Positions 6,954 through 37,861 of a stretch of 64,000 nt of DNA are shown here, piece by piece. Location: positions 1,331,501 through 1,395,500 of the forward strand of contig CANXME010002538.1 of the NCBI GenBank assembly GCA_948144175.1. The letters are read 5' to 3'. Below the pieces are notes generated by a model. The model saw only the letters and a list, made by a program, of their open reading frames with translations. It did no database searches and was not told where the DNA came from. The stretch's first letter is position 1; each line of letters opens with the position of its first letter. Made by a program: the position numbers and the translations under genes. This DNA is from Closterium sp. NIES-65. Taxonomy: Eukaryota; Streptophyta; Zygnematophyceae; Desmidiales; Closteriaceae.

Positions 6954-7228
6954 ATGGCGGTCATAAGTCACCGCGGACCCCTTGTCAAAGGCTTTCCGCG
7001 ATCTGCACCGTTTGCTGGTCTACACACTCTGCTATTCGTCCACGACATACTGTCGGACGCTCCAGATGCTCCCGCTACACCTACAGCGTCTAACGCATCT
7101 AACTCCGTCAGTGCAAGCGGTCCTTTTCGCGTGCCTGAAGCTTACATTGACGAAACTCCCTCGGCTGTGAACGAGGGAGCTCCTCAAGATGAACATCAAC
7201 CACCACCAGGAACACCTGCAGCTGTCAC
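6954..7228 (+). pseudogene. Plavaka-like transposase, 5' exon before the hAT insertion
   Basis: This frame encodes PFRVPEAYIDETPSAVNEGA followed by PQDEHQPPPGTPAAVTS, then is broken by element F (7234) and the hAT element (9175). If the hAT, element F and the duplicated target bases are removed mentally, the frame runs from AAVTS straight into DHPESRPEGSHAALPT at 34253, with no stop. That continuity is the main evidence that this piece belongs to the transposase gene at 34249-37861. I see no start codon I can defend. The exon may begin at a splice acceptor, or the protein may start at the Met at 6954. Confidence 0.6.
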
Positions 7229-7233
7229 GAGTG

Positions 7234-7441
7234 TGTTGAGCATACTAGAACGAGTTTGGCTTAGGAGCCATAGTTGTTTAGGAGTGAGTTCGAGTTTTAG
7301 GGTGTAAGTGAAATGTCGAGAGAATTGTGGAAGGAGAATGTTGAAACTAGAAAGGAGGGGGATACAAGTAGTAAGCCCTAAAAGGGTTATACTCACTTTT
7401 GAGTACCCCACTACAGACTAGACATGCATTATAATCTAACA
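7234..7441 (-). repeat. 3' LTR of element F
   Basis: 208 bp, TGTTGAGCATA to ATAATCTAACA in plus reading, nearly identical to the right copy with scattered substitutions. Bounded on the left by the TSD GAGTG. Confidence 0.92.
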
Positions 7442-8029
7442 CACCCCCATAGTCAAAGTGGGGTATAATCAGTACAGCATGCAGGCATAGAGCAAGAGTT
7501 CACAATAGTTAAGTAAGGCTAGAGCTAATCACAAAGGGCAAGTGAGGAGGAGGAGAGACTGTGGGGGGAGAGAAAGATGGGAGGCGACTGCTGACTCTGC
7601 AGACACACAGACGAGCTGCTGGCTCAGTGGCTACCGAAGCAAAGGCCCGGACTACACGAGTAACTGGCTCCGCGGCTAAAAGTAGCGGTAGACGAGCAAC
7701 TGACCCACAGGCGACTGGCGACTACCGGAGATTGTAGCCTCCGGACTGCTGGTGCTGCTGACGACAAGACTGGTGCCTCCACTCAACCTCCCCCAGCTGC
7801 CCAACGCCCCTCTCACACACCCCCTGCTCAAACCCTAGCCCTACACCCTCAGCACCCCCTTAAACCCTAAACCCCAAACTCCCACACATCCACCCCCCTC
7901 AGCGATAGCTGCAGCAGTGGGAGACGAAGGAGGAGGAGGAGGAGATGGCACGCACAACCAACACCCCCACAACCATCACCCTCACACCCACCCTCCCACG
8001 GCTGCACCGGGTCCAGGAGCGGCTGCTGC

Positions 8030-8500
8030 AGGGGCCAAGGGCGGCTGCTGCATGGGCTGCTGCTGCTGGGGCGGCTGCTCCAGGGGCTGCTGCTATTGGG
8101 GCGGCTGCTCCAGGGGCTGCTGCCACTGGGGCGGCTGCTCCAGGGGCTGTTCCTGCTGGGGCGGCTGCTCCAGGGGCTACTGTTGCTGGGGCGGCTGCTC
8201 CAGGGGCTGCTGCTGCTGGGGCGGCTGCTCTAGGGGCTGCTGCCGGGGCGGCTGCTGCTGCTGGGGCGGCTGCTCCAGGGGCTGCTGCTGCTGGGGCGGC
8301 TGCTCCAGGGGCTACTGCTGCTGGGGCGGCTGCTCCAGGGGCTGCTGCTGCTGGGGCGGCTGCTCCAGGGGCTGCGGCTGCTGGGGCGGCTGCTCCAGGG
8401 GCTGCTGCCGCTGGGGCGGCTGCTCCAGGGGCTGCTGCTGCTAGGGCGGCTGCTCCAGGGGCTGCTGCTGCTGGGGCGGCTGCTCCAGAGGCTGCTGCTG
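8030..8500. repeat. 30-bp tandem array inside element F
   Basis: About 15 copies of a 30-bp unit (GGGGCGGCTGCTCCAGGGGC plus TGCTGCTGCT). It reads as (GAAAPGAAAA)n in one frame and stays open on both strands, creating artefactual frames of up to about 400 codons. Confidence 0.9.
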
Positions 8501-8959
8501 CAGCGGAAATTAGGAGGGAGGTGAGGGGAAGGGCGCGGCCCACAGAGTGCCCTGACGAGCGACGTGCTAGGGAGCTGCGCAGGCCCCCGAAAGTGCCTCG
8601 ACGGGCGATGGGAGGGGACCGCGTGCAGGCCCCTAAGACGCCGCGACGAGGCAATGGGAGGGGCCGGCTCGCAGGCCCCGAAAGTGCCGTGACGAGGCAA
8701 CAGGAGGGGCCTGCGTGAGGGCCCCCAGAACGCCGCGACGAGGCGACGGTCAAGGCCAGTGCGCGGGCCCCCAGGACGCCGCGACGAGGTAGGAACCCGC
8801 CGCGCGCCTCGAGGCGCACGGCGGGCAGAAAACCGCCACGCGTTCCGAGCGCATGGCGGGAAGAAAAATAGGATGTCGCGAGCCACGGGGCGCGCGACAC
8901 ATAGTAGGGCAGCGGAAGCAAGTGGGCCCACAGGCCAGGAGCTTTAAGCTCTGATAGCA

Positions 8960-9167
8960 TGTTGAGCATAATAGAACGAGTTTGGCTTAGGAGCAATAGT
9001 AGTTTAGGAGTGAGTTCGAGTTTTAGGGTGTAAATGAAATGTCGAGAGAATTGTGGAAGGAGAATTTTGAAACTAGAAAGGAGGGGGATGCAAGTAGTAA
9101 GCCCTAAAAGGGTTATACTCACTTTTGAGTACCCCACTACAGACTAGACATGCATTATAATATGACA
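8960..9167 (-). repeat. 5' LTR of element F
   Basis: 208 bp, TGTTGAGCATA to AATATGACA, followed by the TSD GAGTG (9168-9172). The primer site is immediately to its left on the minus strand. Confidence 0.92.
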
Positions 9168-9174
9168 GAGTGAC

Positions 9175-9350: not shown

Positions 9351-9539
9351 AATAAAACACATAAACTACAACACTGTAAAGGGTTCCAACTAGAAGGGTA
9401 TCTGCTTTGGTATTGATTTGACTTACCCTTGACGTGTTTATAACAACTTAAAAGAGCATAAATAAAGTGTGCAAGAGAATATGTTCACAGTCAAAGGAAT
9501 GAACATGGGAGGGTCACAAAGGGTTCCCTCCATACCCCC

Positions 9540-10760
9540 CTAACAAAATGTATAGCCCAGTCCCAGCCCCGCCTCCAACGCCACCATCCTCGCTACCTCC
9601 GGCTGCTGCATCCGCCCCTCTCCCCTCCGCCGCGTCCTCAAACACCTCCTCCGCTGCCTCCCCCTCCACCTCCTCCTCCGCCTCCTCCTCCTCCTCCTCC
9701 TCCTCCTCCTCCTCCTCCTCCTCCTCCTCCTCCTCCTCCTCCTTCTCCTCCTCCTCCTCCTCATCCTCCTCCTCCTCCTCTTCCTCCGCAACTCCGCCCT
9801 CAATAGCAATTTACAGAGTTGCGACCCCTTTCGTGCGGCGGCCCTCACCGATTCTCTGGCCAGGGTGCAATCCATACCATTATCTCAGAATCATGCAGGA
9901 TCGCGCCCTCTTGGAGTTCAGCCGGTGACGCTTCCATGAAATGAGGTTGGGGCCCAAGGAGAACACGTGCTCGCTTGCCGCAGACGTGGCCGGGATCGCG
10001 AGATGATCCCTTGCCATCCTCTTCAGCGTCTCCATGTTCGTGGAGGTGCGCCAGTACTCTAACGCTGACACGTCGTACCGCACCCTCTCAGACAAGTACC
10101 TGCTGACCTCATCATCATGCAAAAGACCACTTCCCCCCCGCTGCTTGGCTCGCAGACAGACGCGCCGCAAGGCGTTGGCGACTAGGGAGGTACAGGTCAT
10201 CGTCGTCCTCCCCCCCCCACCTCTCCCTCATCCTCCTCTACAACCGTGGGAAGTGCCGTGGGCCTAGGAACGAGCTACCTCACCGCTGCCTGGTACTCGG
10301 CCACCCGATCTCGTACCAGCGCGATCACCACGCTTGACGGTGGGCGCGGCCTATCCCTATGCTCCGTCTCTGAATGCTGTGTCTCCCAGCGGGGGTCGTC
10401 GAACCACGCCGCCTTCATGGAAGGATTCAGGAAGGTGGCGATCCAGCCCTCGTTGCTGCTGATCTACGCGTACTTCTTCAGGATTTTCAGCACCTTTTCG
10501 ACTAAAGGCTTCAGCAGCGCCGAGGGCCCCTTTGCCAGTTTGGCCTCTATGGCGTCGATGAGGCCGTTGTAGTACGGCACCACCATCAACAGTGTCGGGT
10601 ACGCCGTCCCCTCGGCTCCCTTGGAGACCTTGTTGAAGGGGCTGAGAAAATTCTTCAGCTCCCTCAACATCCCCCACTGCTCATCTCACAGGCGCATCTT
10701 CTCCACTTTCTCCTTGTCCGCCTTCAACAGGCCATGTCAGTCAAGGTTTGGGTTTTGTGG
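9540..10760 (-). pseudogene. hAT transposase, C-terminal half
   Basis: The stretch 9880-10200 carries the hAT dimerisation domain: ALEYWRTS, then MARDHLAIPATSAASEHVFS, then LISWKRHRLNSKRARSCM. Upstream (10464-10670) the sequence MLRELKNFLSPFNKVSKGAE continues to PYYNGLIDAIEA, the helical part before the domain. In-frame stops lie between MRL and DEQWGML (about 10690), after LKILKKYA (about 10465) and after EYQAAVR (about 10270). Downstream of the domain a GAG-rich run would give an acidic Glu tail (9640-9790). The transposase cuts and joins at the TIRs as a dimer. Here it is split, nonsense-laden and inactive. Confidence 0.85.
9640..9790. repeat. CTC/GAG trinucleotide microsatellite
   Basis: A nearly pure (CTC)n run, interrupted by a few T and A changes, lying just after the hAT dimerisation domain. 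On the transposase strand one frame reads as poly-Glu. The plus-strand poly-Ser and minus-strand poly-Arg frames are shadows. Confidence 0.9.
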
Positions 10761-10814: not shown

Positions 10815-11263
10815 TGTCAGAACGTTATATAGCTTATGCTGTTGTGTAGGCTATAGTGGGGTATCCCATAGGGGGTACAACCCAATTAGGGTTTCCTATA
10901 TGTACTCACTTCATTCATAGTTCATTCATTCTTGTTCTATTCTTCTCATGGTATCGAGCAGGTTCCCCTGTGGGAACTGCGCCTAGGGCCCACCACTCGA
11001 TTTTTTTTTCTTGCCCGAAGCGCACTCATCCCGAGTCGCGCCTCGGGCCATTCTCTTACCGAGCCGCCCTAGCGGCCGACCCTACGATCGCGGCCCCGCC
11101 GCCCCTTGATCGCGGCCCCGTCGCCCTTACCTCGCGGCCCCGCCGCCCTTACATCGCGGCCCCGCCGCCCCTGCTCTCGCGGCCCCGCCGCCCTTTGATC
11201 ACGGCCCCGCCGCCCCTGCTCTCGCGGCCCCGCCGCCCTTACCTCGCGGCCCCGTCGCCCTGC
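10815..11263 (+). mobile_element. Copia remnant E: LTR, primer site and leader only
   Basis: A 134-bp LTR (TGTCAGAACGTTATATAGC to ATTCTTCTCA, 10815-10948) is followed directly by the primer site TGGTATCGAGCAGGTTCC (10949-10966) and the GGGCCCACCACTCGA segment seen at the same place in G. A GC-rich CGCGGCCCCGCCGCCC array (about 11085-11260) follows. No gag or pol remains. Where gag should begin the sequence becomes the LTR of gypsy element D. The orientation is plus, opposite to elements A, B and C. The right half is missing, so no TSD can be checked. Confidence 0.8.
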
Positions 11264-11633: not shown

Positions 11634-11635
11634 CT

Positions 11636-13905: not shown

Positions 13906-14029
13906 TGACGAGAAATGAGAATGAATGCATTGAGCAGAGAGGAGAGTACAAGTAGGAAACCCTAAAGTGTTGTACCCCATATTGTCTACCCCACTACAGT
14001 CTACACAGACTATAGCATATATGCTGACA
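13906..14029 (-). repeat. 3' LTR of copia C
   Basis: 124 bp from TGACGAGAAATGAG to ATATGCTGACA. On its right is the polypurine tract (minus reading CTATGGGGGTG). It differs from its partner at many sites, so C is clearly older than B. Confidence 0.92.
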
Positions 14030-14229
14030 CACCCCCATAGGCAAACTGGGGGAGAAGAAGGAGTCAAAAGACCAGTCAAGCGAAACAAAGCAAGCTCATG
14101 GTGGATCGCTATGTCACCACACAGTCCGAGCACAAGAGCAAGGCCACAAGGCCTGTTCACATGCAAGATCATATATATAAAGGTAAACAAGCAAGTGCAG
14201 GTATAGAAAGATCACGGTACAAGCAAGGT

Positions 14230-14596
14230 CAAGAAGTGAGCAAGTGAGGCCAAGTAGGCACAAGACCTAGCATAGTACAGAAGCGCTGATGAAAACAAGG
14301 CGGAAGGGCCTTGGTGAAGATATCAGCAGTGTTGGCCTCAGAGGCCACGTAGGTGAGGCGGAGCTGACCACACTGCTGCAGCTCACGAGCCAGGAAGTAG
14401 CGGAGAGCAATGTGCTTCGTTCTGTGCTCTCGACACAAGGCCAGCATGGCCTTGTTGTCTACGTACAGAACTGGAGGAGAACGAGGCGGCTCTCCTAGGT
14501 CAGGGAGCAGGTAGGTGAGCCAGCTCCTGTGCAGCCATGGCCCTTCCGTAGATCTCAGCCTCACAGCTGGAGCTGAGAACAGAAGACGAGCGGGTA
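14230..14596 (-). pseudogene. Copia C RNase H C-terminal part
   Basis: The frame encodes YVDNKAMLALCREHRTKHIA, LRYFLARELQQCGQLRL and EANTADIFTKALPP, ending with WPHLLTS. This is the last third of copia RNase H. The other part lies at 21987-22419, on the far side of element B. Both sides carry GGGTA at the break (14592-14596 and 21987-21991). Confidence 0.88.
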
Positions 14597-14731
14597 TGTT
14601 GAGATAGAGGCGAGGAATGAGTGCACTATGAAATGAAACAAGTACAAGTACCAACCCTAATTGCGTTGTACCCCCTATGGGCTACCCCACTACAGCCTAA
14701 ATATATGCATCAGTAATATAATCATCTGACA
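14597..14731 (-). repeat. 3' LTR of copia B
   Basis: 135 bp, TGTTGAGATAGAGG to AATCATCTGACA. The polypurine tract with TATGGGGGTG (minus reading) abuts it at 14732-14750. Confidence 0.95.
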
Positions 14732-14951
14732 CACCCCCATAGGCAAAGTGGGGGAGAGCAAGGGGTCACAAGACCAGTCAAGCAAAGCAAAGCAAAGCAA
14801 AGCAAGCTCAGGGTGGATCTCAAGGATACCACACAAATTCCGAGCACAAGATCAAGGCCACAAGGCCAGTTCACATGCAGCAGAGCATATATATATAACA
14901 GCGCTAAACAAGCAAGAGCAAGGATATATATGTGCAGCAGTACAAGCAAGG

Positions 14952-16589
14952 TCAAGAGGTAAGCAAGTGAGGCCCAGTGGGCACAAGGCCTAGCAGAGTG
15001 CAAAAGCGCTGATGGTCACGAGGCGGAAGTGCCTTGGTGAACACATCAGCAGTGTTGGCCTCAGTGGCCACGAAACGCAGGCGAGGCTGACCACGCTGCT
15101 GCAGCTCTCGAGCAAGGAAGTAGCGCAGAGCAATGTGCTTCGTCCTGTGCTCCAGTCTGTGCTCCTCACACAAGGCAATGGTTGCCTTGTTGTCGACGTA
15201 GAGCACTGGAGGAGAACGAGGCCGCTCTCCAAGGTCAGTTAGCAGGTAGGTGAGCCAGCGAAGCTCCTGGGCAGCCATGGCCGTGGCGTAGATCTCAGCC
15301 TCACAGCTGGAGCTGAGAACCGAAGAAGAGCGAGTAGAGCGCCAAGAGACAGAGCCAGAGCCAAGACTGAAGGTGTAACCCTGAGACGACCTCAAAGTAG
15401 CCAGGTCGTCAGCCCAAGAAGCGTCTGAGTGCCCGGTGAGCACAGGCCGCTCACGCCCTCCAAGCACTAGCCCCATGCCCGACGTACTGCACAAGTAGCG
15501 CAACACCCTCTTAGCTGCATCCATGTGCTCCTTCCGGTGACGGCCGGGAGCAACATAGCGTGCTAAGATGCTGAGAGGGTATGCGAGGTCAGGTCGAGTG
15601 CAAGTCATCAGGTACATGAGGCAGCCCACAAGCTCTGGATACGGACCACTCGACTCTACGGACTCATCCGAAGGCAGAGCTGAGAGCGAGTGTCCCGTAG
15701 GCAGAGGAGTGGACTGAGGCGAGGAGTACGTGAAGCCGAAGCGCTGAAGGACCTGCTGCACCATGTGTGACTGAGTCAGGGTAATGGTGCGGCGTGCTTT
15801 GTCCCGGGTGATCCGCAAGCCAAGATAGCTTGTCAGTTCACCCAGGTCTGTGCACGTGTGTCTCTTCTGCAGCTCGGACTTCACGTGGGCGAGTGCGGCA
15901 GTGTCCGCAGTGGCAAAGACCAAGTTGTCGACGTACACGAGGATGTAGAACGGTGGCAGCGAGGTGTCGGTGCGCAGAAACAGCGACGGGTCAGCAGTAG
16001 AAGGAGCAAACCCAAGAGCCGCAAGTGTAGTCCTCAGTGTGTCGTGCCACTCACGCGGCGCCTGGCGGAGACCGTAGACTGGCCGCTGGAGGCTCCACTG
16101 GGTACCAGGAGGGAACGACCCAGTGAAGCCAGGAGGGCGGCGCAGCCAGATCTCCTCGTGCAGGCGGCCTTGCAGGAAAGCAGTGCTGAAGTCAAGAGAG
16201 TGTAGCTCGTAGTCACGCTGAGCAGCGACGTGCAGTAGAACCCGAAGAGTGGTCATCTTCGGGGTCGGGGAGAAGGTCTGAAAGAAGTCAACTCCCTGTC
16301 GCTGACTGAAGCCACGAGCCACGTAGCGCGCCTTGAAGACAGGCGGAGAACCCGGCGGCCGCTTCACCCTGAAGATCCACATGCCACTGACGATGTTCGC
16401 CCCAGGAGGGGGGACAGCGTCAACGTAGGTGCCTGTGGACTTCCAGGAAGCCATCTCTGCGTCCATGGCTGACTGCCACTGAGAGGAGTAGGGACCGGCC
16501 ATCGCCTCTGCGTAAGAGTGTGGGGTCGGGATGTCTAGAGCATCCGGGTCTCCCTCAGGGGCAACAAGCATGGACACGAGATGGGGCAA
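14952..16589 (-). CDS. Copia B reverse transcriptase and RNase H
   Basis: A 545-codon open frame, the longest intact pol segment in the window. RT motifs in order: NIVSGMWIFRVKRPPGSPPV, ARGFSQRQGVDFFQTFSPT, HSLDFSTAFLQG with the first catalytic Asp, YGLRQAPREWHDT, and the box FYILVYVDNLVFA (15924-15935), where the second Asp of YVDD is Asn. Two Asp are normally needed for metal binding, so polymerase activity is doubtful. RNase H follows with SDASWADD, SSCEAEIYA, YVDNKATIAL and EANTADVFTKALPP, ending WPHLLTS-like (GPHLLTS). The Met chosen is internal to the polyprotein. Upstream sequence is joined by a one-base frameshift near 16772. Confidence 0.9.
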   Translation of the reverse strand: MPHLVSMLVAPEGDPDALDIPTPHSYAEAMAGPYSSQWQSAMDAEMASWKSTGTYVDAVPPPGANIVSGMWIFRVKRPPGSPPVFKARYVARGFSQRQGVDFFQTFSPTPKMTTLRVLLHVAAQRDYELHSLDFSTAFLQGRLHEEIWLRRPPGFTGSFPPGTQWSLQRPVYGLRQAPREWHDTLRTTLAALGFAPSTADPSLFLRTDTSLPPFYILVYVDNLVFATADTAALAHVKSELQKRHTCTDLGELTSYLGLRITRDKARRTITLTQSHMVQQVLQRFGFTYSSPQSTPLPTGHSLSALPSDESVESSGPYPELVGCLMYLMTCTRPDLAYPLSILARYVAPGRHRKEHMDAAKRVLRYLCSTSGMGLVLGGRERPVLTGHSDASWADDLATLRSSQGYTFSLGSGSVSWRSTRSSSVLSSSCEAEIYATAMAAQELRWLTYLLTDLGERPRSPPVLYVDNKATIALCEEHRLEHRTKHIALRYFLARELQQRGQPRLRFVATEANTADVFTKALPPRDHQRFCTLLGLVPTGPHLLTS

Positions 16590-18184
16590 AGCGGCGGCAA
16601 AGCACTGGAACTCCTCCTGCCTGTCCTCAAGGACGTCCGTGCCAAGAGCACAGTCACCCCCGACGGACGGAGGACAGGCAGACGCAGACGCAGACTCAGC
16701 AGACTCAGCAACAAGACTGGCAGCGTAGTCCAGACGACACGCAGCAGCAAAGTCGACCAGCTCAGCAACTAGGGAGACGCAGCAGCGGACTCAAAGGAAG
16801 GGTCAGTGACAAGAGTAGCAAGAAGACGCGTGACAGTAGGACTGGCAGCACGGTGAGAGTCCGACTCCGGGTCGGCAAGAGTAGGAAGAGAAGACTGAGG
16901 AGGAGAAGGCAAAGGGGCACGCAGAGGAGCAGTGGACGGACGCAGAGACATCTGGTGCGTGCCAGGGACAGGAGGAGGACGCTGACGCGAAGCGCAACCA
17001 CTAGTGCGAGCAGCTCGGACTGGCGACACAGGGCGGGACGCAGGCTCACGACGCTCAGCAAGACCTCCAGTAGGACCAGCGTAGGGAGAAGGAGAAGGCA
17101 GAGGAGAGGCGGGCTGTAACTGTGACCGTGACGGGACAGGCTGCGGACACTCTACGGGAGGAGAAGGACCAGTGGAAGGCGGGAGACCAAGAACCTGCTG
17201 AAGGAGCGGAACGAAGTACGGCCGAGGCCGCGCAGCACCGCGAGAGACAGCAGGGACAGCACCAACACCTCCAGAGGCAGCACCAGCACCAGTAGCAGCT
17301 CCAACTCCAGAGGCACCCCCGGTCCCGGCAGCTCCAGTACCCTGAGTACGAGCACCTCCGGGACCCGTGGTACCAGCTCCCTCGGCAACAACGGAACCTC
17401 CAGCACCCGCAGTACCCCCGGCTCCAGCAGCTCGCCTCCAGCGCCGGGCAAACCACTCACGCAGCTCCAGAGGAGAGAGCGGCTCGCGGCGCGAAGAACG
17501 GTCTGGAGAACCACCAGGAACAGAAGCAGTAGGCGCAGCACTCCCAGACGTAGAGCCCCCAGGCTCAGCACCCCCAGGCACAGCACCCCCAGGCTCAGCA
17601 CCCCCACGCTCAGCACCCCCAGTCACAGCACCCCCAGGCTCAGTACCCCCAGGCTCAGCACCCCCAGGCTCAGCACCCCCAGTCGCAGCACCCCCAAGCT
17701 CAGTACCCCCAGGCTCAGCACCCCCAGTCTCAGCACCCCCAGTCTCAGCACCCCCAGGCTCAGCACCCCCAGTCTCCGCACCCCCAGTCTCAGCACCCCG
17801 AGGCTCCGCACCCGCAGCAGCACCAGAGTCACCAGTGACCTCGACAGGCTCGACCGCGTCTACCTGAGACACACCTGAAGGGGCAGGACCCTGAGGGGGG
17901 AGGGGGTCTACCGGGGGGGGACCTGGGACCAGGAAGAGGGGCGGGGGGGGGGAGGGACGGAGTGCGGTAGGGGAAGAGCCGGTAGAAGGGAACCGACTCG
18001 TCGAACGTGACGTCCTGGGAGGACAGAACACGACGAGAGGTGGGGTGGTAAAACTGCCACCCAGGTGCGTCAGGGGGGAAACCCAGGAAGACGCAAGGAG
18101 CAGCACGAGGGGACAGCTTGTCCGCAGACAAGTCGCGGACAAACGCCCGAGATCCCCAGACACGGAACGCCGACGCATCGCCAA
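16590..18184 (-). pseudogene. Copia B integrase C-terminus, linker and RT lead-in
   Basis: From 18184 down, the frame starts in integrase C-terminal sequence and shifts near 17940 at a C-rich run. It then gives a linker of GGAETGGAEPGGAE pentapeptides (17560-17820) and the motif LSPLELREWFARRWRRAAG (about 17430-17480), followed by Gly/Ala and Ser/Pro runs. The RT lead-in (LVAELVDFAAACRLDYAASL) is reached after a single-base loss near 16772 compared with element A. The LSPxxLREWFA motif also occurs in the gag of this same element. No known function is assigned to the linker. Confidence 0.78.
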
Positions 18185-18611
18185 CCTTCCTCGTCCACAG
18201 CAAAGCTGGGGAGGTCTCCGTTCTGGAGACCCTGGGCTGAAGGTTGATCTGATGTGCGGCGTACCTCACCGCAAATGGCCACAGAAAATGGGGGGCAGCC
18301 GCATGCACCATGGACGTACGGGCGACGTCCATGACAATGCCGATGCGGCGCTCAGCAATCCCATTCTGCTGTGGAGAGTCCGGAAGCGTGAAGGTCTGGC
18401 GGATGCCTCGTGCCTGACAGTAGGCTCACAGAAGGCCGGAGGAGAACTCTCCGCCTCTGTCCGAGTGCAGACGCAAAACAGGAAAGTCCGAGCCGAAGCT
18501 CCGCCTGAGCTGGAGACGAGCCGCGCGGATCCAGTCGATCAACACCTCAGTGACCTCACCCTTGCTGCGCAAGGGGAAGACTGTGGTGTAACGCGAGTAG
18601 TCGTCAACCAC
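17829..18611 (-). pseudogene. Copia B integrase core
   Basis: This is the part of integrase with the second catalytic Asp (LRLHSDRGGEFSS) and the Glu (QQNGIAERRIG), giving the DDE triad with the Asp in LHMDVWGP upstream. The frame is interrupted by a stop near 18424 (after EFSSGLL) and another near 18640 (CAG changed to TAG before GHERYFLL), but the frame itself is kept across both. The C-terminal section FLGFPPDAPGWQFYHPTSRR followed by VLSSQDVTFDES is well preserved. Only nonsense changes separate it from a working frame, consistent with a recent insertion. Confidence 0.85.
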
Positions 18612-18635
18612 CAGCAGGAAGTAGCGCTCGTGACC

Positions 18636-20455
18636 CTATCCACGGACGCGGGCTGGGCCCCACACGTCCATGTGAAGCGTCTGCATCGGGGCCTCCGTCG
18701 GAGGAAACGGGGAGGAGTGAGGGGTAGCCCGCAGTCGACCCTCGACACAGGGGACACAGGGAGGGCGAGGCCCCGGAGGAAGGGGAGGGTGGGACCGGGG
18801 AAGGCCAGAGACAAGAAGGCGAGAGGCCATGCCCCGGAGACGAGGCAGGGAGGGGTGACCCATCCTGTGGTGCCACAGGAGGGTCTCGTGGGACAGGAGG
18901 CGACACGAGCAGGGGGCAGACTCAGGACCAGACCTGGACGCTGCAGCAAACACCTGACCCGACGCAGCTACCTGACCAGACGCAGGAGGAGGAGACGGAA
19001 CAGTGAGTGTGTACAGGCTCGACCCCGGCCCACGTGTGAACGTGGTCAAGTGTCGACCCGTGTCCGCGTCCGTGCAGTGGGTGTCCCGTCGGCGTGCAGG
19101 GGTGAACTGGTCGACCCCTGCATCCTGTAGGTCAGCACCCGCCACCAAGTTCGTAGAGAACGAGGGGAGGTAGAGACCGGACAGGGCGCCAGACGGGACC
19201 GCAAGGCACGGCAGAACAGTGGAGTAGCGAGCCAGAACAGGACCCCCAGAGGGGTCCGCCAGGGAGACCGCCACTGGCCGACTAAGCGGCGTGAGTGTGG
19301 TGCGGTCTCGAAAGAAGGAGCGAGACGCCCTTGAGTCAAGAGTGAAGGTGAGAGAGGGCGGAGCCGACGCAGTACCTGAGAGAGCAGACTCACCAGCACC
19401 TGAGGACACAGACTCATTGGCACCTAGAGCGACAGCCTCACCAGCACCTGGAGCAGCAGCCTCAACAGCACCTAGAGCCGCAGTACCAATGCCCGAGTCG
19501 GGCGGGAAACACCGGTAACTATCACCCTCCTCAATAATAGTCACAGCATACATGGCAGCAACAATAGCATCAAAGTCAAGATCAAAGATAGCTACTCCTG
19601 CCCTAGACAGCTGGTCCCAGCGAGGGATCTCAGAGGCGTCAGGAAACTGGCGGCGCCAAGCGTCAGTCAGGCGGCCGAAGCAGCGCTGGGCGGGGTGTGG
19701 ACCACCACACGGCTCACCCGCACGGTCGCCCGTGCGCAAGACGTAGGTGCACGGACCAGTACCCCCACCCCTCTGACGTGCAGCGTACCACTCACGGAGC
19801 TGCTGCGGGGAGAGGGTCTCCTGACCAAGCTGCTGCCGCTGCTGTTGGCGCTGACCGCCACCGGAGCCACTCCTCTGCGACGAGCCACGACCTCCTCCGC
19901 CGCCTCCTCCGCCGCCGCCGCCACCACCTCCGCTGCCACCGCCACTCCCACCGTCGCTGCCGCCACCGCCGCCTCCGCCTCCACTCCGACCACCACCGCT
20001 GCTGCCACCCCCGCCTCCTCTGCCACCGCTGACACCTCCACTCCCGACACCACTCCCGCTACCACCCCCACCTCCTCCGCTGCCTCCACCGCCGCTCCCA
20101 CCGCCCCCGCCGCCTCCACCACCGCTCCTGCCCCCTTTGCCCTTGCCAGAGCGACGTCTCCCACTGGGGGCAGACGCCGCACCGACCGACTCAAAACCAA
20201 CTAGGTCGGCCGTAGCAGCAGAGGCGACAGAGGGCAGGAGGGGGGAGGGGGAACACCCCTCAAAGATGGGGGTGCGCGGGTCACCACGAGAGGCCCCTAC
20301 AGCGAGAATGCTCTTCTCGGCTGCTAGGAGGGACTTCTCGAGGATGTTAACAGTGAGAGTGGTGGGGCAGACTGAGAGTAAGTCGTCCCTGACTCCGCGG
20401 AGGGAGTCAGGGAGGCGGGTGACAATGTAGTAGAGAGTGAAGTATTGGGGGGGGG
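18636..20455 (-). CDS. Copia B gag C-terminus, protease and integrase N-terminus
   Basis: A long open frame entered after the poly-C tract. It reads YFTLYYIVTRLPDSLRGVRD (end of capsid), DPRTPIFEGCSPSPLLPS, a basic GRRRSGKGKGG patch and a ~90-residue poly-Gly/Ser tract. Then come LSPQQLREWYAARQRGGG and the odd zinc knuckle C-x13-C-x3-H-x4-C (about 19680-19760). Protease follows with TLDSRASRSFF, where the flap-side Gly of DSGA is Arg, then the HHCC region LLWHHRMGHPSLPRL...CVPCVEGR and integrase LHMDVWGPARVRG, ending at a stop at 18636. Gag forms particles, protease matures them and integrase inserts the cDNA. Confidence 0.85.
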
Positions 20456-21700: not shown

Positions 21701-21851
21701 AAAAAAAAGCGGGCGGCTCGACACGATCGGGCCGCCAAAGGAAAAAAAAAGGCCCAGCGCGACTCGGGCTAGGGCAGAGCGCGCTCCGGGCAGGACGAAA
21801 TAGTGGGTGGGCCCTAGGAACAGTTCCCACTAGGGAACCTGCTCGATACCA

Positions 21852-25500: not shown

Positions 25501-26977
25501 AAACTTGACTCGACGCAGCTACATGGCCAGACTCAGCAGCCGGTGGAGACTCAGTAGTAAGGGTGTACAGGCTCGACCCTGGCCGACGGGTGAACGTGGC
25601 CAAGTGTCGGCTTGTCCGAGCACACGTGCACTGGGTCACCCGCTGACTCGCAGGAGTGAACTGGTCAACCCCGCAATCCTGTAGGTTCGCTCCACTCACC
25701 AATTTCGTAAAGAACGAGGGAAGGTAGAGACCCGATAGGGTGCCAGAGGGGGCTGCCGGGCACGGAAAGAGAGTGGAGAAGCTAGCAAGGACAGGACCCC
25801 CAGAGGGGTCCGCCAGGGAGACTGCAACCGGCCGACTGAGCGGCGTAAGAGTGGTGCGGTCTCGAAAGAAGGAGCGGGATGCACACGAGACTAGGGTGAA
25901 GGTGTGTAGGGCCTGAGCCAACGTAGTACCCCAGAGAGCAGACTCACCAGCACCTGGGGCAGCAGACGCACTAGCACCTTGGGTAGCAGACGCCCTAGCA
26001 CCTAGAGCAGGTGCCTCACCAGCACCTAGAGCAGTGGCCTCAATGCCCGGGTCATGCGGTACACACAAGTAAGAGTCACCCGCAACACTTTCATCAACAG
26101 CATACATGGCAGCAAGAATAGCATCAAAATCAAGATCAAAGATAGCAGCCCCCGCCCTAGACAGCTTTCCCAAGCGAGGGATCTCTGAGGCTCGAGGGAA
26201 CTGGTGACGCCACGCGTCCGTCAGGCGGCCGAAGCAGCGCCGGGTGGAGTGCGGGCCCCCGCACTGCTCACCGGCGCGGTCGCCGGTGCGGAGAACGTAG
26301 GTGCAAGGCCCCGTACCCCCACCACGCTGAGGCGAAGCGTACCACTCACGAAGCTGCTGAGGGGACAGGGTCTCATGACTGCTCTGTTGCTGCTGGCGCA
26401 TACAACCACCGAAGCCACTCCTCTGCGCAGAGCCGCGACCAGGTCCACTGCTGCCACTGCCGCCTCCGCCACCTCCGCCGCCTCCGCCGCCTCCACCACC
26501 TCCGCCACCTCCAATCCCTCCACCACCGCCGCCGCCTCCTCCGCCTCTAGTGCTGCCACCGACACCTCCACCTCCCCCACTACTCCCACCACCACACCCA
26601 CCCCCTCCACTGCCTCCACCACCACCTCCACCGCCCCCGCCAGCCCCTCCGGCGCCCTTGCCCCCCTTGCCCTTGCCGGTGCGACGTCTCGCGCTCGGGG
26701 CAGACGCAGCGCCGTATGACTTGAAACCAACGAGGTCGGCCGCAGCAACAGAGGCAACAGAGGGCAAGAGGGGGGAGGGGGAACACCCCTCAAAGACGGG
26801 GGTGCGAGGGTCACCACGAGAGGCTCCTACAGCGACTATGCCCTTCTCTACTGCTAGGAAGTCCTTCTTGAGGAGGTCAACGGTGAGAGTGGTGGGGCAA
26901 ACTAAGAGGAAGTGGTCCCTGACTACGCGAAGAGAGTCAGAGAGCCGGGTGACTATGTAGTAGAGGGTGATGTACAT
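25501..26977 (-). pseudogene. Copia C gag C-terminus and protease
   Basis: After the poly-C tract the frame reads MYITLYYIVTRLSDSLRVVR, DPRTPVFEGCSPSPLLPS, the RRRTGKGKGGKG basic patch and a poly-Gly tract. It continues with LSPQQLREWYASPQRGGG and a zinc knuckle with the same C-x13-C-x3-H-x4-C spacing as element B (CTYVLRTGDRAGEQC, then GGPHSTRRC). The protease active site DSGAS has become VSCAS (TLVSCASRSFF), losing the catalytic Asp. The frame then drifts out of the integrase frame after about 25490. Confidence 0.85.
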
Positions 26978-26992
26978 GGGGGGGGGGGGGGG

Positions 26993-27453
26993 TTCTTGGC
27001 GCAGAATTCAGCAGGAAGCGCAGCGCGGTAGCGAGTGTCACTAGTGCGGAGGTGCGTAATGGGGTCAGCGACTGTGGGAAAGGCAGCAAGGTCAGGGAAG
27101 AGGTACGGTAGCATGAAGCGGCTCAGTGCAGCAGAGGCAGGGGAAGAGTAGCGTGCAACTATAGCGTCGTACAAGGTCTGAGCACTCTTGTACTGGCTAA
27201 AGTGTGCACGCTCAGTGGTCGGTAATTGGCGACGCGCAGCAAGGCGAGCAGTAGCATCACGCGTGGCCCATTATGAGCGAACAGTGCTGTCAGGAGTAGC
27301 AGGCGGGGCAGGAGAGGCACCTGAGGTGAGATCGAACAGAGAGAGTCCGTCTGCCCTATCGCACTGGAGAAACAGCTGGAGGTCATCTACCCAGACCTCA
27401 AAGTCAACAACACGGCCCTCAGCATCAAAAGTAAGGACACTGGGGGTAGCCAT
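26993..27453 (-). pseudogene. Copia C gag N-terminal domain
   Basis: Begins MATPSVLTFDAEGRVVDFEV at 27453, the same start as in B, with WVDDLQLFLQCDRADGLSLF. A TAA stop (near 27272) interrupts just before WATRDATARLAARRQLP, after which the capsid sequence goes on in frame to AEFCAKNPPPPP. It then leaves frame at the poly-C tract (26978-26992, 15 bases). Confidence 0.85.
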
Positions 27454-27499
27454 GACTGCAGTGGCCTAGTAGGGAGTGAGCTCACCAGTCGAGGATGGA

Positions 27500-28370
27500 G
27501 GGCCGGTTCGCACCGGTAGGAACACCAGCGGCTCGACAATAGGGCGGCTCAGTTGCTCGGTTGCTGGGCGGCTCGACGGCAGGGCGGCTCGGCTGGTGGG
27601 CGGCTCGGCGGCAGGGCTGCTTGGCTGCTGGGCGGCTCGGTCGCTGGGCGGCTCGGCTGCTGGGCGGCTCGGTTGCTCGGCAGGTGGGTGGCTCGGCTGC
27701 TGGGCTGCTCGGCGGCTTGGTCGCTGGGCAGCTTAGCGGTGACAGTGCCGCTAGGGGAGGTCGACGCGGCCGCACGTGACGGCGACGGGGCCGTAGGTGG
27801 CGGCGACGGGGCCGCAGGTGGCGGCGACGGGGCCGCAGGTGGCGGCGACGGGGCCGCACGTAATGGCGACGAAGCCGTTGGCGGCGGCGACGGCGCCGCA
27901 GGTGGCGGCGACGGGGCCGTAGGTGGCGGCGGGGCCGCAGGTGGCGGCGGCGTGGCCGCAGGTGGCGGCGACGGGGCCGCAGGTGGTGGCGACGTGGCCG
28001 CAAGGGGCCTAGATGGGGCCGCGGAGGGGCCGTAGGGGGCCTAGGCGGGGCCATAGAGGGGTCCCAAGGGGCCTAGACGGGGCCGAAGAGGGGCCGCAAG
28101 AGGCCTAAACGGGGCAGCGACGGGGCCGTAAGGGGCCGGAAAGGGCGCCGCGAGGGGCCAAAAGGGGCCGCGCGAGGGCCGGAAGGGCGACGCGAGGGGC
28201 CTTAAGGGGTCGTAAGGGGCGGTAAGGGCGGTGCGAGGGGCCGTAGAGGGCGGCGCGAGGGGCCGTAAGGGCGCCGCTAGGGGCCGTAAGGGTGGCCAAA
28301 GGGGCCGTGAGATGGGCCACTAAGGGCGGCTCGAAGGTAGGGAGGGCACACAGAGCTTCACAGGGCAAGA
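27500..28370. repeat. Leader tandem arrays of copia C
   Basis: GGGCGGCTCGGCTGCTG-type units (27540-27740), then a 21-bp unit near GACGGGGCCGCAGGTGGCGGC (27770-28010), then looser GGGGCCGTAAGGGGC units (28010-28340). Same position relative to primer site and gag as in B and J. Confidence 0.85.
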
Positions 28371-28453
28371 GTGAAGCGCGCTCCGGGCAAGGAAAAAAAA
28401 GTATCGTGGTGGGCCCTAGGTAGTGTTCCCACGAGGGAACCTGTTTGATACCA

Positions 28454-28577
28454 TGATGAGAAACAAGAATGAGTGCATTGAGCAGAGAGTGGAGTACAAG
28501 TAGGAAACCCTATATGAATGTACCCCATATGAAATGCCCAACTACGCCTACACAAACTATAGCATATATGCCTGACA
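28454..28577 (-). repeat. 5' LTR of copia C
   Basis: 124 bp, TGATGAGAAACAAG to ATATGCCTGACA, with TSD CTATG on its right (28578-28582) and the primer site complement GGAACCTGTTTGATACCA on its left. Confidence 0.93.
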
Positions 28578-30080: not shown

Positions 30081-31154
30081 ACCTCGGACATGTAGCACGG
30101 ATGGATGAACCCTCTGCTCAAGGGTCTATTCCAACATGGGTACTCCGTGGACGTAGAGATAGCTACAGCACAGACCAAGAAGCTGTAACAGTGGGAGAAA
30201 GTCTTAGCTGTCAGAAAGGGTTCAGGATTGATTTGGGTACCGAATCACGCCCCGCTATGGCAGATCCTATTGGAGGAGTTTCATGACGTACCATACGCGG
30301 GACACTTCGGGAGCAACAAGACATTAGCGGGAATAGCGAAGTATTACTACTGGCCCGGGATGGCAGCAGACGTGCAGCATTTTGTTACCTCATGCGATAC
30401 GTGCCAGCGGATGAAGAGCAGCAAGCAAAATAAAGCAGGGTTACTTCAGCCTCTACCCGTACCGGAGCAGCCATGGCAGGTCGTTAGCCTCGACTTCATC
30501 ACGGGACTTCCTTCGACCTCACGAGGGCATGATTCTATCCTCGTAGTGATCAATAAGTTCTCCAAAATGGGTAACTTCATCCAGACCAACGCCACGGCTA
30601 CAGCTGAAGCAACTGCTCGCCTCTTCTTCGATCGCATCATCACCATCCACGGCATCCCCGCTACACTTATCTCAGACAGAGACCCTAAATTCACAAGTAA
30701 TTTCTAGAAGGAGCTCATGGGATTATTGGGGACCAAACTTGCGATGTCCTCAGCATACCACTCACAAACTGATGGACAGACAGAGCGACTCAATCAGGTG
30801 GTTGAACAGTTACTACGCACAGCTTGCAAAGATGACGTCAGCCACTGGGACACACAGTTACCGACCCTAGAGTTCGCTTACAACAACGCATCACATGCGG
30901 CCACAAGGAAAACTCCTTTCTTCTTGTGTTACGGATGGGAACCACTCACACCACAGCAGCCAACCACACCGGCACACGTCCAAGCCGCACATGACTTCGT
31001 CACCACCATACAGCAACTATGGGAGAAGACTCAGCGACGACTCACCATGATGCAGACCTTCCAGAAGCAGTATGCCAATCGTCAGCGACATGATCAGACA
31101 GTAGCATTCGGAGATCAGGTGCTTCTTGACATGCGCAACTTGAACTTGTCTCAC
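30081..31154 (+). pseudogene. Gypsy D integrase, C-terminus lost
   Basis: The zinc-binding region reads HDVPYAGHFGSNKTLAGIAK, then FVTSCDTCQRMKSSK (HHCC). The catalytic core has VSLDFITGLPSTSRGHDSIL (Asp 1), LISDRDPKFTSNF (Asp 2), a stop at 30705, and SQTDGQTERLNQVVEQLLRT (Glu). The frame continues to GDQVLLDMRNLNLSHL, just before the chromodomain/SH3-like tail, and is then fused to LTR sequence at about 31155. The missing piece includes the C-terminal domain, polypurine tract and the 5' two-thirds of the right LTR. Confidence 0.92.
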
Positions 31155-31276
31155 CTTCGCGTAACACCTGGTTATGAGTGCTTGTGTCGACCATATATAT
31201 AGCCTCGTGTTGTACCCATATGATCATTCAATTCATTTCAAACGCTCTTTTCTGAGCTCAATCCTAGATCCTCACA
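31155..31276 (+). repeat. Truncated 3' LTR of gypsy D
   Basis: Starts abruptly at CCTTCGCGTAACACC and ends GATCCTCACA, matching the last 123 bp of the left LTR. The junction shares CCT with the integrase sequence, suggesting a microhomology deletion. Confidence 0.85.
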
Positions 31277-31289: not shown

Positions 31290-31450
31290 GCAACCAACAA
31301 CCATGCCATACACATGGCACACACATGCTGCACGCATGCCACATACATGCCGCACACATGCCCGCATACATGCCATGCCACACACATGCTGCACACATGC
31401 CCGCATACATGCCATGCCACACACATGCCGCACACATGCCACACACATGA
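31290..31450. repeat. ACATGCC/CACACATG minisatellite
   Basis: Tandem, imperfect units of about 54 bp built from CACACATGCC and GCATACATGCC. It begins right where hAT coding sequence stops being recognisable (the DSPTHVM segment), so it probably occupies an intron or replaced an exon. Confidence 0.85.
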
Positions 31451-33666
31451 CGTGGGTAGGACTGTCCTACACTAGCTTCAGGGCTGGTTTCTTGATACGG
31501 GCCTGCTGGTTCAGGCCCCGCTGAAGTCCCAAAAATGCCGACGAGCGTTTAGGCGAGTACTCGACTCAGGATGCCATGTCTTTGAGCACCTTCAACAAGG
31601 CGCAAATGGCCTCCACCTTCAGTCCTGCCTGCACTGCCAAGTTGTCCACATGTGAGACACACATGCAAACCATAGCACCACAGGCATGGATTTCGGAGGT
31701 AGTGGTGCATGGTCTTTGGTTGACGTGGCGTGGGAGATTACTAGAACTCCGAGTGACCCCACTCAACCCCCACACCGCCGTTCGCGGCCTGCCACCCCGA
31801 TATCACCCCCACACCATACACACTCATACCTGAAGTGCAGGCGGGAGTTGAAGAAAGCTTGACCACCACCCTCCTCCGACAGCCATCTGTACGCGGTGAT
31901 ATTGGCTGAGGCGTTGTCTGTGGTGAGGCCCAGACAACACCCCTCCAACCCCCACATCACCACCGTGTCCTCCACGATTTGCGCGATCTGTGCTATGCCA
32001 TGGCGACCCGGTAGCTCGCGAAACTCGAGCAGTGCCTCGCGTAGCTGAAACGACTCGTCGATCTAGTGACCTGTCACAACTAACCAAGCTTTCCCATTGG
32101 GCGCAATCCAAATGTCAATAGTGTACGACACCTTGCATCCCAACTCCCCCTCCTTCCCCTACAGCTCCGCCTTGGCTGCATGCCGAGCGGCCGCTGAAAA
32201 CGCCACCGTGTCGCATGCCACTGTCCAGCACGAAGGTATGAAGCTCTTCTGCCCGCACTGCTGGTTGCACAGGATCAAAAGCTCGCGAAACTGGTGGGGT
32301 GGGTGGAGGGAGATCATACAACGAGCATGCGTTGAGTCTCGCTTAATAGTTACGAATGCCCGACCCAACCCAGCCCAACACCCTCCCCTCAACATCATGC
32401 GCTCGTCGTCTCTACAAAACTTGCAAACTGTCACGTCCGAGCCAACCAACCAGACCACACCAGTCACGCCCAGCAGCCCTATACCCTTACCTCCTCAGCC
32501 TCCACAATTTTGATGGGTAGGTCACAGGTTACCCCCAGCTTGGCGATCGCTTGACGAAGCTCCACTTCTGACAGCTTCTTCGACATGTAGCTCTTGATCC
32601 CAGCCTCGCATGACCCTGCCGCCCCTCGCCCCTCTGCCTTCCCTCCCTTCTTTGGGATGTTTGGCCAGCTTTCTACATGTGGCCAATAATACACGTAGCC
32701 ATCAGGCACTCCGACGTAACCCCCCCTCGGAAACGTCTCGCCCGGCAGTTGCAGATGTGGATTGTGGAAACGGTGGAACCACACATCCATATGAGCAGTG
32801 TGGTAGCTCTCAACGTGGCGCTCGCCTGGTGTAGGTGTAGAGCTCTTCCACGAAATCCGATTTGTGCAAATCTTGCATTGCCGTTTCTCGTCGGTCCCCA
32901 AAGGCCCAAACATCTGAACTTGCCACCTCGGCTTCTTCCTCCCCTTGCCACTCCCCTTGCTGCTCTCTTGCTCTCCCTCCTTGTCAAGAAACTATAGAAA
33001 AACCACGCCCTCGCTCAAATCCACCCCTTTGAAGGTGCAAGGATACGCTCGGGTCCGCAGCTTCTCGGGTTTCTTCTTCCTGTTCCCAATTAACGGCCTC
33101 TTTCGCCCAACCTTAACACCGCCACCGCCACGCACTGGCTGTCTACCCACATGCTGAGATGCCTCCTTTGCGGCAGCCGCGGCAACCCCTCCTCCCTCAC
33201 CAACCCCCTCCTCCACCCCCTCAGGTTCCAACCCTTCCATCTCCTCGTCTTCATCTCCTCCTCCGTCCCCAGCACCGCCATGCGTCCGGGGTGTCCACCC
33301 CGGCTCACTATCATCACCGCTCCCCTCCTCGTCCTCCTCCTCCTCCTCTCCCTCCCCCTCATCATCCCCCTCATCGTCCCCCTCATCGTCCCCCTCCTCC
33401 TCCTCCTCCTCCTCGTCTGCCACACTATCAGTCTGAGTGGTGGTGCGCGTGTGCCCAGAAGTACGGGGTCGAGTACCCGAGTAACGGAACGAACGATGGG
33501 TTGACGGCACCGGCATGGACAGTAGCCCACCGACGAAACAAGCACCCACTCCTCCAGGGCCGTCACCTACTCGACCCTGCATAGGACGTGGTGCAGACGA
33601 TGGAGCAGAGGCCTGACTTCCACCGCGACCACCCCGCCCTGCACTAACTTGTTGGTGGGTGGACAT
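31450..33666 (-). pseudogene. hAT transposase, N-terminal half with catalytic core
   Basis: The minus-strand gene starts near the Met at 33666 (MSTHQQVSAGRGGRGG) with an acidic, low-complexity region (33350-33420). A BED-type zinc finger is at about 32790-32880 (CKIC, then HVESYHTAH). The RNase H-like core has YTIDIWIAPNGKAWLVVTGH (first Asp near 32120), then IDESFQLREALLEFRELPGR, and WGLEGCCLGLTTDNASAN (second Asp near 31910). The hAT motif HACGAMVCMCVSHVDNLAVQAGL is near 31620-31690, and SPKRSSAFLGLQRGLNQ leads to DSPTHVM near 31450. A stop replaces Trp in GHWID (near 32065). Introns are likely between 31700 and 31830 and elsewhere. The rest of the gene is 20 kb away at 9540-10760. Confidence 0.85.
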
Positions 33667-34033: not shown

Positions 34034-34246
34034 CCTTTTCGTCGACGAACATCTGAGGTGTTCGTCGATGTGCGTGTCGAACACAAAACATGTTCGACAC
34101 TTCGCGGCCGGCTAACACCAAACATGTTCGGGCGAACACGCACATGTTCGAACCCAACATTTTTTGGCAAAAAAAAATCCCGTTCTGTTCGACCCGAACA
34201 TGTTAGAGTCGAACCGAACGGGTGTTCGGCAAAATGCTCATCCCTA
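34034..34246. repeat. hAT right TIR and subterminal repeats
   Basis: Repeated ACATGTTCG, GTTCGGGCGAACA and CGAACGGGTGTTCGG motifs in both orientations end in the TIR GCTCATCCCTA at 34246. The TSD CGAGTGAC follows at 34247-34254. Confidence 0.85.
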
Positions 34247-34248
34247 CG

Positions 34249-37200
34249 AGTGACCATCCTGAGAGCCGGCCTGAAGGGAGTCATGCCGCACTGCCGACAA
34301 TCATCTCCGAACAGAGCAATGCTACGCCCCTCAATCCGCTCGCTTTGAAGCTGCTGCATTTCGTTCGGCACGTGAATGGTGGAATGGGAATGGCGGAACG
34401 TGACATCAACGGCCTGCTTCAGCTCGTGGTAGAGCCCGGCCTTGCGCCTCTTGTGACCTCGGAGCTCCGGAATTGTAAGGATCTGGAGCGGTTCGAGATG
34501 GAGCGCTTGGTAGGGCTCAATCGCGGATGGTCGGTGGCGACCTTCGAGATTGCCGGTCATCCACCACAACGCTTGCTCTTCCAAAACTCAGCTCGGGTAA
34601 GCCGACTCTGAATTCTTGGGTGTGAAATGCCGATGAGGCAAACAGGGTTTGTGTGTATGAAGTTATCCTTGTATTAACCGTACACCCACCTACACCGCCA
34701 CTAACCATGCCCCTCCTCTCACCTGCGTTCGCCACCATAAACCAGGCATTCGCTGAAATGTTTGGGCATCCCAACAACGCGCCTGGCTTCAAGCTCAAGG
34801 CGCATGTTGATGAGGACCCTGACACATGCGGCCGTCGCTATACCACACCTGAAACATGAACGTGGTGGAATGATGCCCAGGCAAGGAAATACCACGTTGC
34901 CACCACAAACCCAATCCTTGCTCATGCCTCCATCGTTGCGCTGATGTGTCTAGAAAATCTTGAGTGTTTGATCATATGTCTGTTGCCACTTTGTCGTGCA
35001 TTGCAGGATCACTTCGGATGGTCCGAAGTTGTGGGGGGGATCATCCTATATTCGGATGTGATGCACATGAGCAACAACGGCCGGAAGAAGGCGTGGCCGC
35101 TCATGATGATGCTGGCCAACATCTCCTAGGCCAAGCGATGGGAGAAAGCCGGTCACACGCTACTTGCCCTCCTTCCTATCCCCCCGTCTGCAATTTCTAC
35201 CGTGGAGAAGGTGATGCTCTTCCAGCGATGCGTCTTCACCGTGCTGCAGCCGCTTCTTGATGGCATGGAAAGGTCCGTACTCGGTTTGCATCTTGCTGTG
35301 TCATCACCCAATCACATGCATAGTATGCAAAGCGTCTCTATATGTAGCATGCCCCTTTGCCCCTCCTCGTTCCTCCCTAAAGCCCGTCCTCCGAATTCCT
35401 GACGCCACTCTACCTATTCCTTGCAGCGGGTTCCGTCTCAGGGACCCTTTCGGTGATTGGCAAACCGTGCGGCCCCTTCTGTACGCCTGGGTGTGTGACT
35501 ACCCCGAGAGCAGCAAGATCAGTTGCACACTCTCGCATGGACCGCGGATGCCACGCAGCATATGCTATGCTGCAAGAGTGAGGTTACGTGTCATGTGCAC
35601 GCATTCAAATACATTGTCGTTTGAGGGTCTCCTAATAGAACCCATATAGTTACCACCCTTACGTTTGTATCCCATCCCTCACCCCCGTGCTACACCAGGA
35701 GCATCTGGTTGCTGTTTAGGCACGGAACACGCCGCGCACGCCTGAACAGCAGCAATGGATCGTTAACGTGGCGGCTGGGACGACAACTAGCCAGGACAAC
35801 CCTTGCAAGTCCTACTCTACCTACCCTGTTGAGGTGAGTGACCTCTCCGCGGCTACTGTGTAGTCTATGCACTGTTCACTGTCATGAATTGCCTATGTGC
35901 TCTGCCCCATTGAACTCACCCCACATGTGGTTTAGGTTAGCTATCCACTCTCACAAGTACATTTCTCCTACATTCCGAACCACATCCCCATTTCCAGTGC
36001 GTGCTCTGGAAGTGGGATGTCCCAGGGACCGCGTAGGGCAACCCCTACCTCGTAGTCATGCCTGGCATCATGCACCAGGCGGACCTGAGCATCATGAGCC
36101 ACATTGTGGCTGTTGTGCGCAAGATGAAGAAGCGGTGTGTGAAGCAGATGGACAGGTCAGTGTTTTAGGGATTCGATTTGTTGCTCTTGGTCACATTTAC
36201 TCAAAGCATAAGTACTGTCCTCCTACTGACATGTTTCTGCCCTTGTGCCACCGTTGAAATAATGTGTATGGGCAAGCGCCTGTCACTCATTCGCGACCAC
36301 ACACACCTGAATCACATGCGCCTGCCGGAGAGCGCCTACTTTGAGAACGAAGCATGTGTCGCGGCCTATGAGCACGGGGCCGTCATGCAGATATGAAAGC
36401 CTTGAATGTTGTCGTCTTGTGCAATAGGCTACACCCGATACTCACAGCAACCCGAATCCATGTTAAACCCACACACCCTGCCCCCTGCCCCCTCCTCCAT
36501 TCCCTGTTGCTTGTCCTGACCGCCCCTCAACGAGTCTGCTCATGCTGCAACTCTTTGTCCCTACTCCTCACACCATCTGTTCTCACCCTCCTCTTTGTTG
36601 CTATCCACAAACTTTGAAGGTCATGGTGTTTATTTTTGCCAACCTACTTTGCCAGCCCCAGATGGATGTCGTTCGTGCCTATCTTGGCTGGTACCTCTTG
36701 TGCTCCCAGCCACAGGGGCACACTGAGCGGTCCCTCCGGGAGCTGAAGAAGATGACCTCCCGGTACTAATACCACGCATGTAAACCCCTATGCATGGGAT
36801 GAATGCTTGGCTACTGTAAATGTGCTCTTGTAGGAGGCAATCTTGTGTGGATGTTGTTGCTAAACCTTGATAGGAAAGGATCAAGAATAGGAAAGCCATA
36901 TGAATAAGTAGACTCTGATATGATTGCATGTGTTATCGTCTCCCACTCCCATCAGGCCCGTTGAGCAGTTGCAGGCTGCCTTTCCAAAGCAGCCATCCTC
37001 TTGGTGCCTTGTGAAAACACATCTCATGTCGCACTACATCGACTCCATTCATCGTGCGGGTCATGTGACTGAATTTAGCACCAGCATGTTAGAGCACTTG
37101 CATGGACCGTTGGTAAAGAGGATCTACCGTCGGTCCAACAAGCGCAATGTAGATGGGCAAATCATGAAGTTCCATGCTAGGCGCATTCCGGATGTGGTGC

Positions 37201-37861
37201 CGGTGGATGATCCGGCTGGCCGGGGCACACGGACTCTTATCAAGGAGTCATGCTTCCTCCTTGTGGAGTTACCACAAAAACCCACCTCCACCAACTGGTT
37301 TGCAAGGAAGTGGGCCAAGCAACACCCTAGTGCCGAAGCTGCCCTCAAGGATGCGCTTATACGTTATGCAAGATGCGTCACCAAGATTCGAGTAAGTAGT
37401 TGAAAGTTTATGCAATCAACCATCATTTGGTTGGCTCGTATCATACATGACTAACATCAATTGTTATGTAGGCCCATGCATTGACGACAATCCCTGCAGT
37501 AGACGACGCCAGCTTCTCAAGAGTTTCTCACTTCGTTCGAGCGCCCCCTGACTATTTTGAGAGGCCATTGTAGTCGGATGTTGCAGTGGAGGGTGTAAGG
37601 TATGGTCGGAGAGAGGAGTGGTATGCAAGGTTGCTTCTGTTGTTCCATACAAAAATACGTGGAGAGAGGGAGGAGTTGGCTTACGTTAGACATTGGAATG
37701 CAAGTGGAGATGATGTTGCAACAGGATGCCTTCGCCTCAAGTGGACGACAGGAATGTACGCGTACTCCGTGATTCCGATTGAAGCGCTACTCCGCCACGT
37801 CCATGTGGTGAAGGCATTCCATCTGGACAGTACCTATCTCCTTAATAAGTTTCAGATGTGA
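34249..37861 (+). pseudogene. Plavaka-like transposase, main body (multi-exon)
   Basis: Exon 34249-34611 reads LALKLLHFVRHVNGGMGMAE and ends GWSVATFEIAGHPPQRLLFQ, a pattern I associate with fungal and oomycete Plavaka transposases of the CACTA group. Later segments fit the same family in order: NNAPGFKLKAHVDEDPD (34760-34860); DHFGWSEVVGGIILYSDVMH (35007-); RDPFGDWQTVRPLLYAWVCD (35430-); GNPYLVVMPGIMHQADLSIM (36040-); KTHLMSHYIDSIHRAGHVTE (37010-); RRSNKRNVDGQIMKFHARRI; EELAYVRHWNASGDDVATGC (37670-); VIPIEALLRHVHVVKAFHLD. GT-AG introns are visible, for example about 34946-35006, 35832-35997 and after 37391. Stops after RRYTTPET, LANIS, HLVAV and FERPL show decay. Confidence 0.75.

Follow-up and report, generated by a model that had tools for sequence, protein, structure and literature searches.

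The 64,000-nucleotide stretch of the Closterium sp. NIES-65 genome analysed here (the window) holds what we are confident is a stack of successive transposon insertions. The deepest nesting path runs from a Plavaka transposase gene into a hAT element, and from there through a copia-type fragment (E), a gypsy element (D) and a copia element (C) to a second copia element (B). As read from the sequence, containment gives the insertion order as Plavaka, hAT, E/D, C, B, which bears out both the order and the element identities given in an earlier sequence-only reading. That reading had also held most of the edges to be proven by target duplications; this stands for three of the five boundaries on the deepest path, the edges of D and E being weaker than claimed.

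The history that best accounts for the locus would have begun with the cut-and-paste insertion of the hAT element into the Plavaka transposase gene, with duplication of 8 bp that are seen in the sequence. Fragment E and gypsy D would then have entered the hAT transposase gene; their containment is observed, and we infer the act of insertion, since no duplication survives. Copia C would next have gone in between the protease and the reverse transcriptase of D, where a 5-bp duplication is found, and copia B into a putative RNase H-like region of C, where a 5-bp duplication is accompanied by uninterrupted paralogues. A short element, copia A, inserted within the left hAT duplication sometime after hAT, as the sequence shows. 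Deletion or recombination may also have shrunk the E/D region, with the loss of the 3′ part of E, most of the 3′ LTR of D and a short hAT coding segment.

The Plavaka gene and the hAT element

The outer Plavaka gene lies on the forward strand in two parts, at 6905–7232 and 34247–37858, which were located by tblastn of relatives and alignment and correspond to residues 6–120 and 119–875, respectively, of the 875-residue relative P0149. In tblastn, the gene is collinear with residues 6–875 of this protein in ten pieces, the match on the right beginning at 34246 and ending at the last residue. As these pieces span 6905–7232 and 34246–37858, the gene is nearly complete at its start and reaches its end, in a mutated copy with stops and other changes. 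The 36 matches listed for it are all Closterium proteins; the nine among them that were aligned are uninterrupted at the hAT site, and both sides of the gene were matched by six of seven relatives in tblastn, the seventh (P0162) beginning downstream. Joining the two flanks gives a single open frame that continues as in the relatives.

The assignment to Plavaka is made from the Pfam scores of the relatives, the model being above cut-off in all four scanned (P0001, P0004, P0009 and P0010), together with the collinearity with P0149; two of the seven window pieces match the model, both themselves below cut-off (E = 0.019 and 0.02). Terminal inverted repeats were sought by exact-match comparison of the flanks, which are cut by other elements; this gave one 9-bp match and nothing longer, and the ends of the Plavaka element were not found at the locus by this comparison.

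The hAT element has outer limits at 9175–34246 and is placed on the reverse strand by its transposase. Both of its ends share the terminal inverted repeat TAGGGATGA. The C-terminal half of the transposase (9802–10736, reverse strand, from Pfam and tblastn) contains the dimerisation domain Dimer_Tnp_hAT (PF05699), above cut-off at E = 1e-11, and the N-terminal half, in several exons, is found by tblastn at 31443–33516 on the same strand; on the minus strand the retrotransposon block thus separates an N-terminal half on its right from a C-terminal half on its left. The 8-bp duplication, the short terminal repeat starting TAGGGATGA and the C-terminal dimerisation domain are all as in the hAT superfamily; the element was matched to no named subfamily. 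Closterium accounts for 111 of the 112 transposase matches listed, the remaining one, P0148, being at 21% identity.

The right copy of the hAT target duplication, CGAGTGAC, was identified by flank comparison at 34247–34254. The left copy is split: its first six bases, CGAGTG, are at 7228–7233, of which 7229–7233 also form the left duplication of copia A, and its last two (AC) follow the right copia A duplication GAGTG within 9168–9174. Once copia A is set aside, eight of eight bases are equal to those at 34247–34254, and the proposal that a Plavaka-like gene was cut by a hAT element with this 8-bp duplication is upheld.

Copia A itself, which was absent from the text of the earlier reading, is a short LTR element of 1.9 kb at 7234–9167 on the reverse strand. 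Its LTRs of ~200 bp are 96.6% identical over the stretch aligned (K80 0.035). We take its type and orientation from primer-binding-like and polypurine-like sequence recognised by eye, and it is probably non-autonomous. Because it splits the left hAT duplication it is younger than hAT, and it may have arrived before or after any of E, D, C and B. In a comparison within the window, ~210 bases of copia A resemble a short element to the right of the nest (element I, 46992–48510) at ~83%, and the two may be one family of short, non-autonomous LTR elements.

The retrotransposon block

Fragment E (10815–11263, forward strand) consists of a copia-type 5′ LTR, a primer-binding-like site and a leader, identified by blastn within the window. 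The same search found no 3′ end. The likeness of E to the other copia LTRs of the window extends to the base before D, and this halt at the first base of D supports the 5′ edge of that element.

Gypsy D, with C inside it, has outer limits at 11264–31276 on the forward strand, set by Pfam, LTR comparison and flank comparison. Its LTR sequences are unequal: the 5′ LTR, with a start that we infer from a TG and the end of E, is 370 bp long, and the 3′ LTR is represented by its last 124 bp only (31153–31276), adjoining integrase sequence. The layout is gag, protease, copia C, reverse transcriptase, RNase H and integrase, so that the Ty3/gypsy order of protease, reverse transcriptase, RNase H and integrase is found, with weak matches for the protease and the integrase core. 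When the stop-free pieces were scanned singly against Pfam, RVT_1, RT_RNaseH and Integrase_H2C2 were above cut-off, all to the right of C, and RVP (19.9 bits, cut-off 20.7; left of C) and rve (15.0 bits, cut-off 32.6) were below it. The flanks of D (CCTGC and TCTCG) show no target duplication.

The block is inside the hAT gene, as judged from the sequence, with part of the target sequence missing. Comparison of the hAT halves by tblastn with 11 of the 112 relatives listed showed 17–40 residues to be missing here in ten (17 in P0068, 26–28 in eight and 40 in P0040); in P0039, the gene model of which is without that segment, there is no gap between the halves. Of the claim that the hAT gene was cut by the E/D block, containment stands, and the claim is weakened by the lack of a D duplication, the single end of E and the missing target sequence. 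CATGC-type short repeats occur at 31301–31452, between the 3′ end of D and the hAT exon, and are possibly hAT intron or filler DNA.

A plausible refinement of the stacked-insertion history, to which we give slightly less than an even chance, is that the E/D block was shaped within the hAT gene by recombination between two copies of D, or by deletion. Such an event would explain the missing duplication of D, the truncation of its 3′ LTR to 124 of 370 bp next to integrase sequence, and the loss of the hAT residues in ten of the 11 comparisons; the lack of a 3′ end in fragment E also speaks for it. Against recombination between D copies, no second copy is among the matches in self-comparisons of the window, and a plain deletion accounts for the same facts, the two being indistinguishable here. 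Either event would add to the series of insertions rather than replace it.

Copia C (13906–28577, reverse strand, with B inside) lies within D between protease and reverse transcriptase and is bounded by the duplication CTATG. Short stretches of the D flanks, when joined at this site, give one frame save for two stops at the site itself. The duplication, the domains and the frame together support the D/C edge, in agreement with the earlier placement of C in D with CTATG. In C, gag_pre-integrase, rve and SH3 are above the Pfam cut-off and precede RVT_2, itself slightly under its threshold (30.7 bits, cut-off 31.6), so that C has the Ty1/copia order with integrase upstream of reverse transcriptase.

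Copia B (14597–21986, reverse strand) lies within C and is bounded by the duplication GGGTA; like C, it thus has the LTRs and 5-bp duplication of a Ty1/copia element. Its gag_pre-integrase domain is upstream of RVT_2, both above cut-off, and rve gave no match in the four pieces of B scanned, from which 18266–18638 was left out. The site of insertion, named by eye from the joined reading, appears to be the RNase H-like region of C. After joining, the flanks of C read through the site in one frame, a stop following ~20 residues further on, on the side of the B-proximal copy. Four other copia copies of the window run through this site and are matched by both halves of C, the halves overlapping by 3–5 bp: 7–317, 52928–53236, 15184–15485 (within B itself) and 51529–51342, the last matching only 35 bases to the right of the site. 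A fifth copy, 44562–44439, matches the left side only, at 72% identity. The flanks and these uninterrupted copies agree with the insertion of B into C with GGGTA as first described.

The expectation that each excision rejoins coding sequence was thus borne out at Plavaka/hAT, at D/C (with its two stops) and at C/B, and failed for hAT at the E/D block, where the 17–40 residues are missing relative to ten of 11 relatives.

Junction controls and relative ages

A perfect 5-bp duplication is present in seven of the eight LTR elements of the window for which both ends were called (A, B, C, D, G, H, I and J). The ends of J were placed with knowledge of the duplication, its 5′ LTR start not being TG, so that it is not independent and the cleaner count is six of seven. 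The initial end calls for I and J gave no matching duplications; the end of I was then moved one base, to the last base common to both LTRs, and those of J were shifted by one to three bases, guided by its duplication. In the controls, none of 56 cross-pairings matched, and nor did any at ten shifted positions. Chance matches were found in 298 of 200000 draws of random TG/CA pairs and in 11 of 200000 for random 8-mers.

These controls bear on the proposal that the junctions, in part or throughout, arose when dispersed transposon copies were misjoined in assembly, which we consider very improbable: misjoins would not leave matching duplications around the hAT element and seven of the eight LTR elements (six if J is omitted), against 0 of 56 cross-pairs, nor would they yield collinear coding sequence on either side of the junctions. 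A misjoin may still lie at the 3′ end of D and at the edges of the E/D block. On the strength of the duplication controls, we reject a general origin in assembly error, a judgement made from the assembled sequence.

The LTR distances (K80), calculated with approximate LTR ends and with gaps left out, are 0.035 for A, 0.007 for B, 0.145 for C and 0.076 for D. The LTRs of B differ at 1 of 135 sites and those of C at 16 of 122 (p = 5e-5), so that B is clearly younger than C, as the nesting demands. The insertion of B after C is therefore supported by LTR divergence, and that of C after D is not: the C LTRs (16/122) are more divergent than those of D (9/124), opposite to the nesting, a difference that is not significant (Fisher p = 0.14). 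That C is older than D and the order wrong for these two, as the counts taken at face value would have it, is highly unlikely, since the position of C within D, with its 5-bp duplication and a single frame around it, fixes the order; in addition, the difference is not significant, and the comparison for D covers one third of its LTR.

A second nest is found to the right of the first, at 38088–52095, where copia J, with the duplication TCAAA that guided the setting of its ends, contains element H (38402–45125, duplication GTGGC) and the short element I (46992–48510, duplication ACCAC). The J LTRs are more divergent than those of H and I combined (p = 0.006), in line with the nesting. Copia G (52379–59884, duplication TTCGT) is inserted on the right-hand side of J and is young by its LTRs, with 2 differences in 119 sites and 8 gap columns. 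In 60250–64000, more copia-like gag and integrase sequence was recognised by eye, together with an apparent additional copia fragment at the end of the window.

Plavaka and transposon nests in Closterium

Nested transposons are a known and ordinary phenomenon, and the example described here is an unusually clear and well-preserved one. In large plant genomes such as maize and wheat, the order of nested retrotransposons is read from containment and LTR divergence. The present locus is like those nests in having LTR elements within each other with short duplications, and unlike them in that its outer two layers are DNA transposons and that it belongs to a unicellular zygnematophyte alga.

Less familiar is the presence of Plavaka in a streptophyte alga. 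The relatives of the window gene are above the Pfam cut-off for Plavaka (CACTA/EnSpm-related, PF18759), and all 56 matches listed in a profile search are from Closterium, a search that scored the 7994 best candidates among proteins sharing short words only, so that absence elsewhere does not follow. A paper on Amoebidium (PMC11244446) reportedly contains the word Plavaka. Passages of PMC12730594 deal with Plavaka in fungi, and one of PMC12633428 mentions EnSpm-Plavaka in the chlorophyte Auxenochlorella. Repeat proportions of ~47–64% are given for four strains in PMC10407611; in its main text the word 'transposon' is absent, and the three occurrences of 'transposable' are confined to the introduction and the reference list. 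Among literature titles on Closterium transposable elements, nesting in Zygnematophyceae and algal Plavaka, none concerned this locus or a Closterium Plavaka, and none concerned nested transposons in a lineage close to land plants.

On balance, we lean somewhat towards the view that Plavaka, known chiefly from fungi, makes up a large family of long standing in the algal sister group to the land plants, old enough at this locus to be overlain by five or more later insertions (hAT, A, D, C and B), and that a number of genes annotated in Closterium are pieces of nests of this kind. The locus shows in what relative order members of several element families inserted, in a lineage near the land plants. 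Three proteins suggest that some predicted Closterium proteins derive from transposon nests: P0164 carries both Plavaka and copia reverse transcriptase domains, a copia SH3 domain is present in P0017, a match to the Plavaka query, and P0086, which was matched by the hAT query, includes a gag_pre-integrase domain. Predicted proteins of this origin could affect counts of gene copy number in Closterium.
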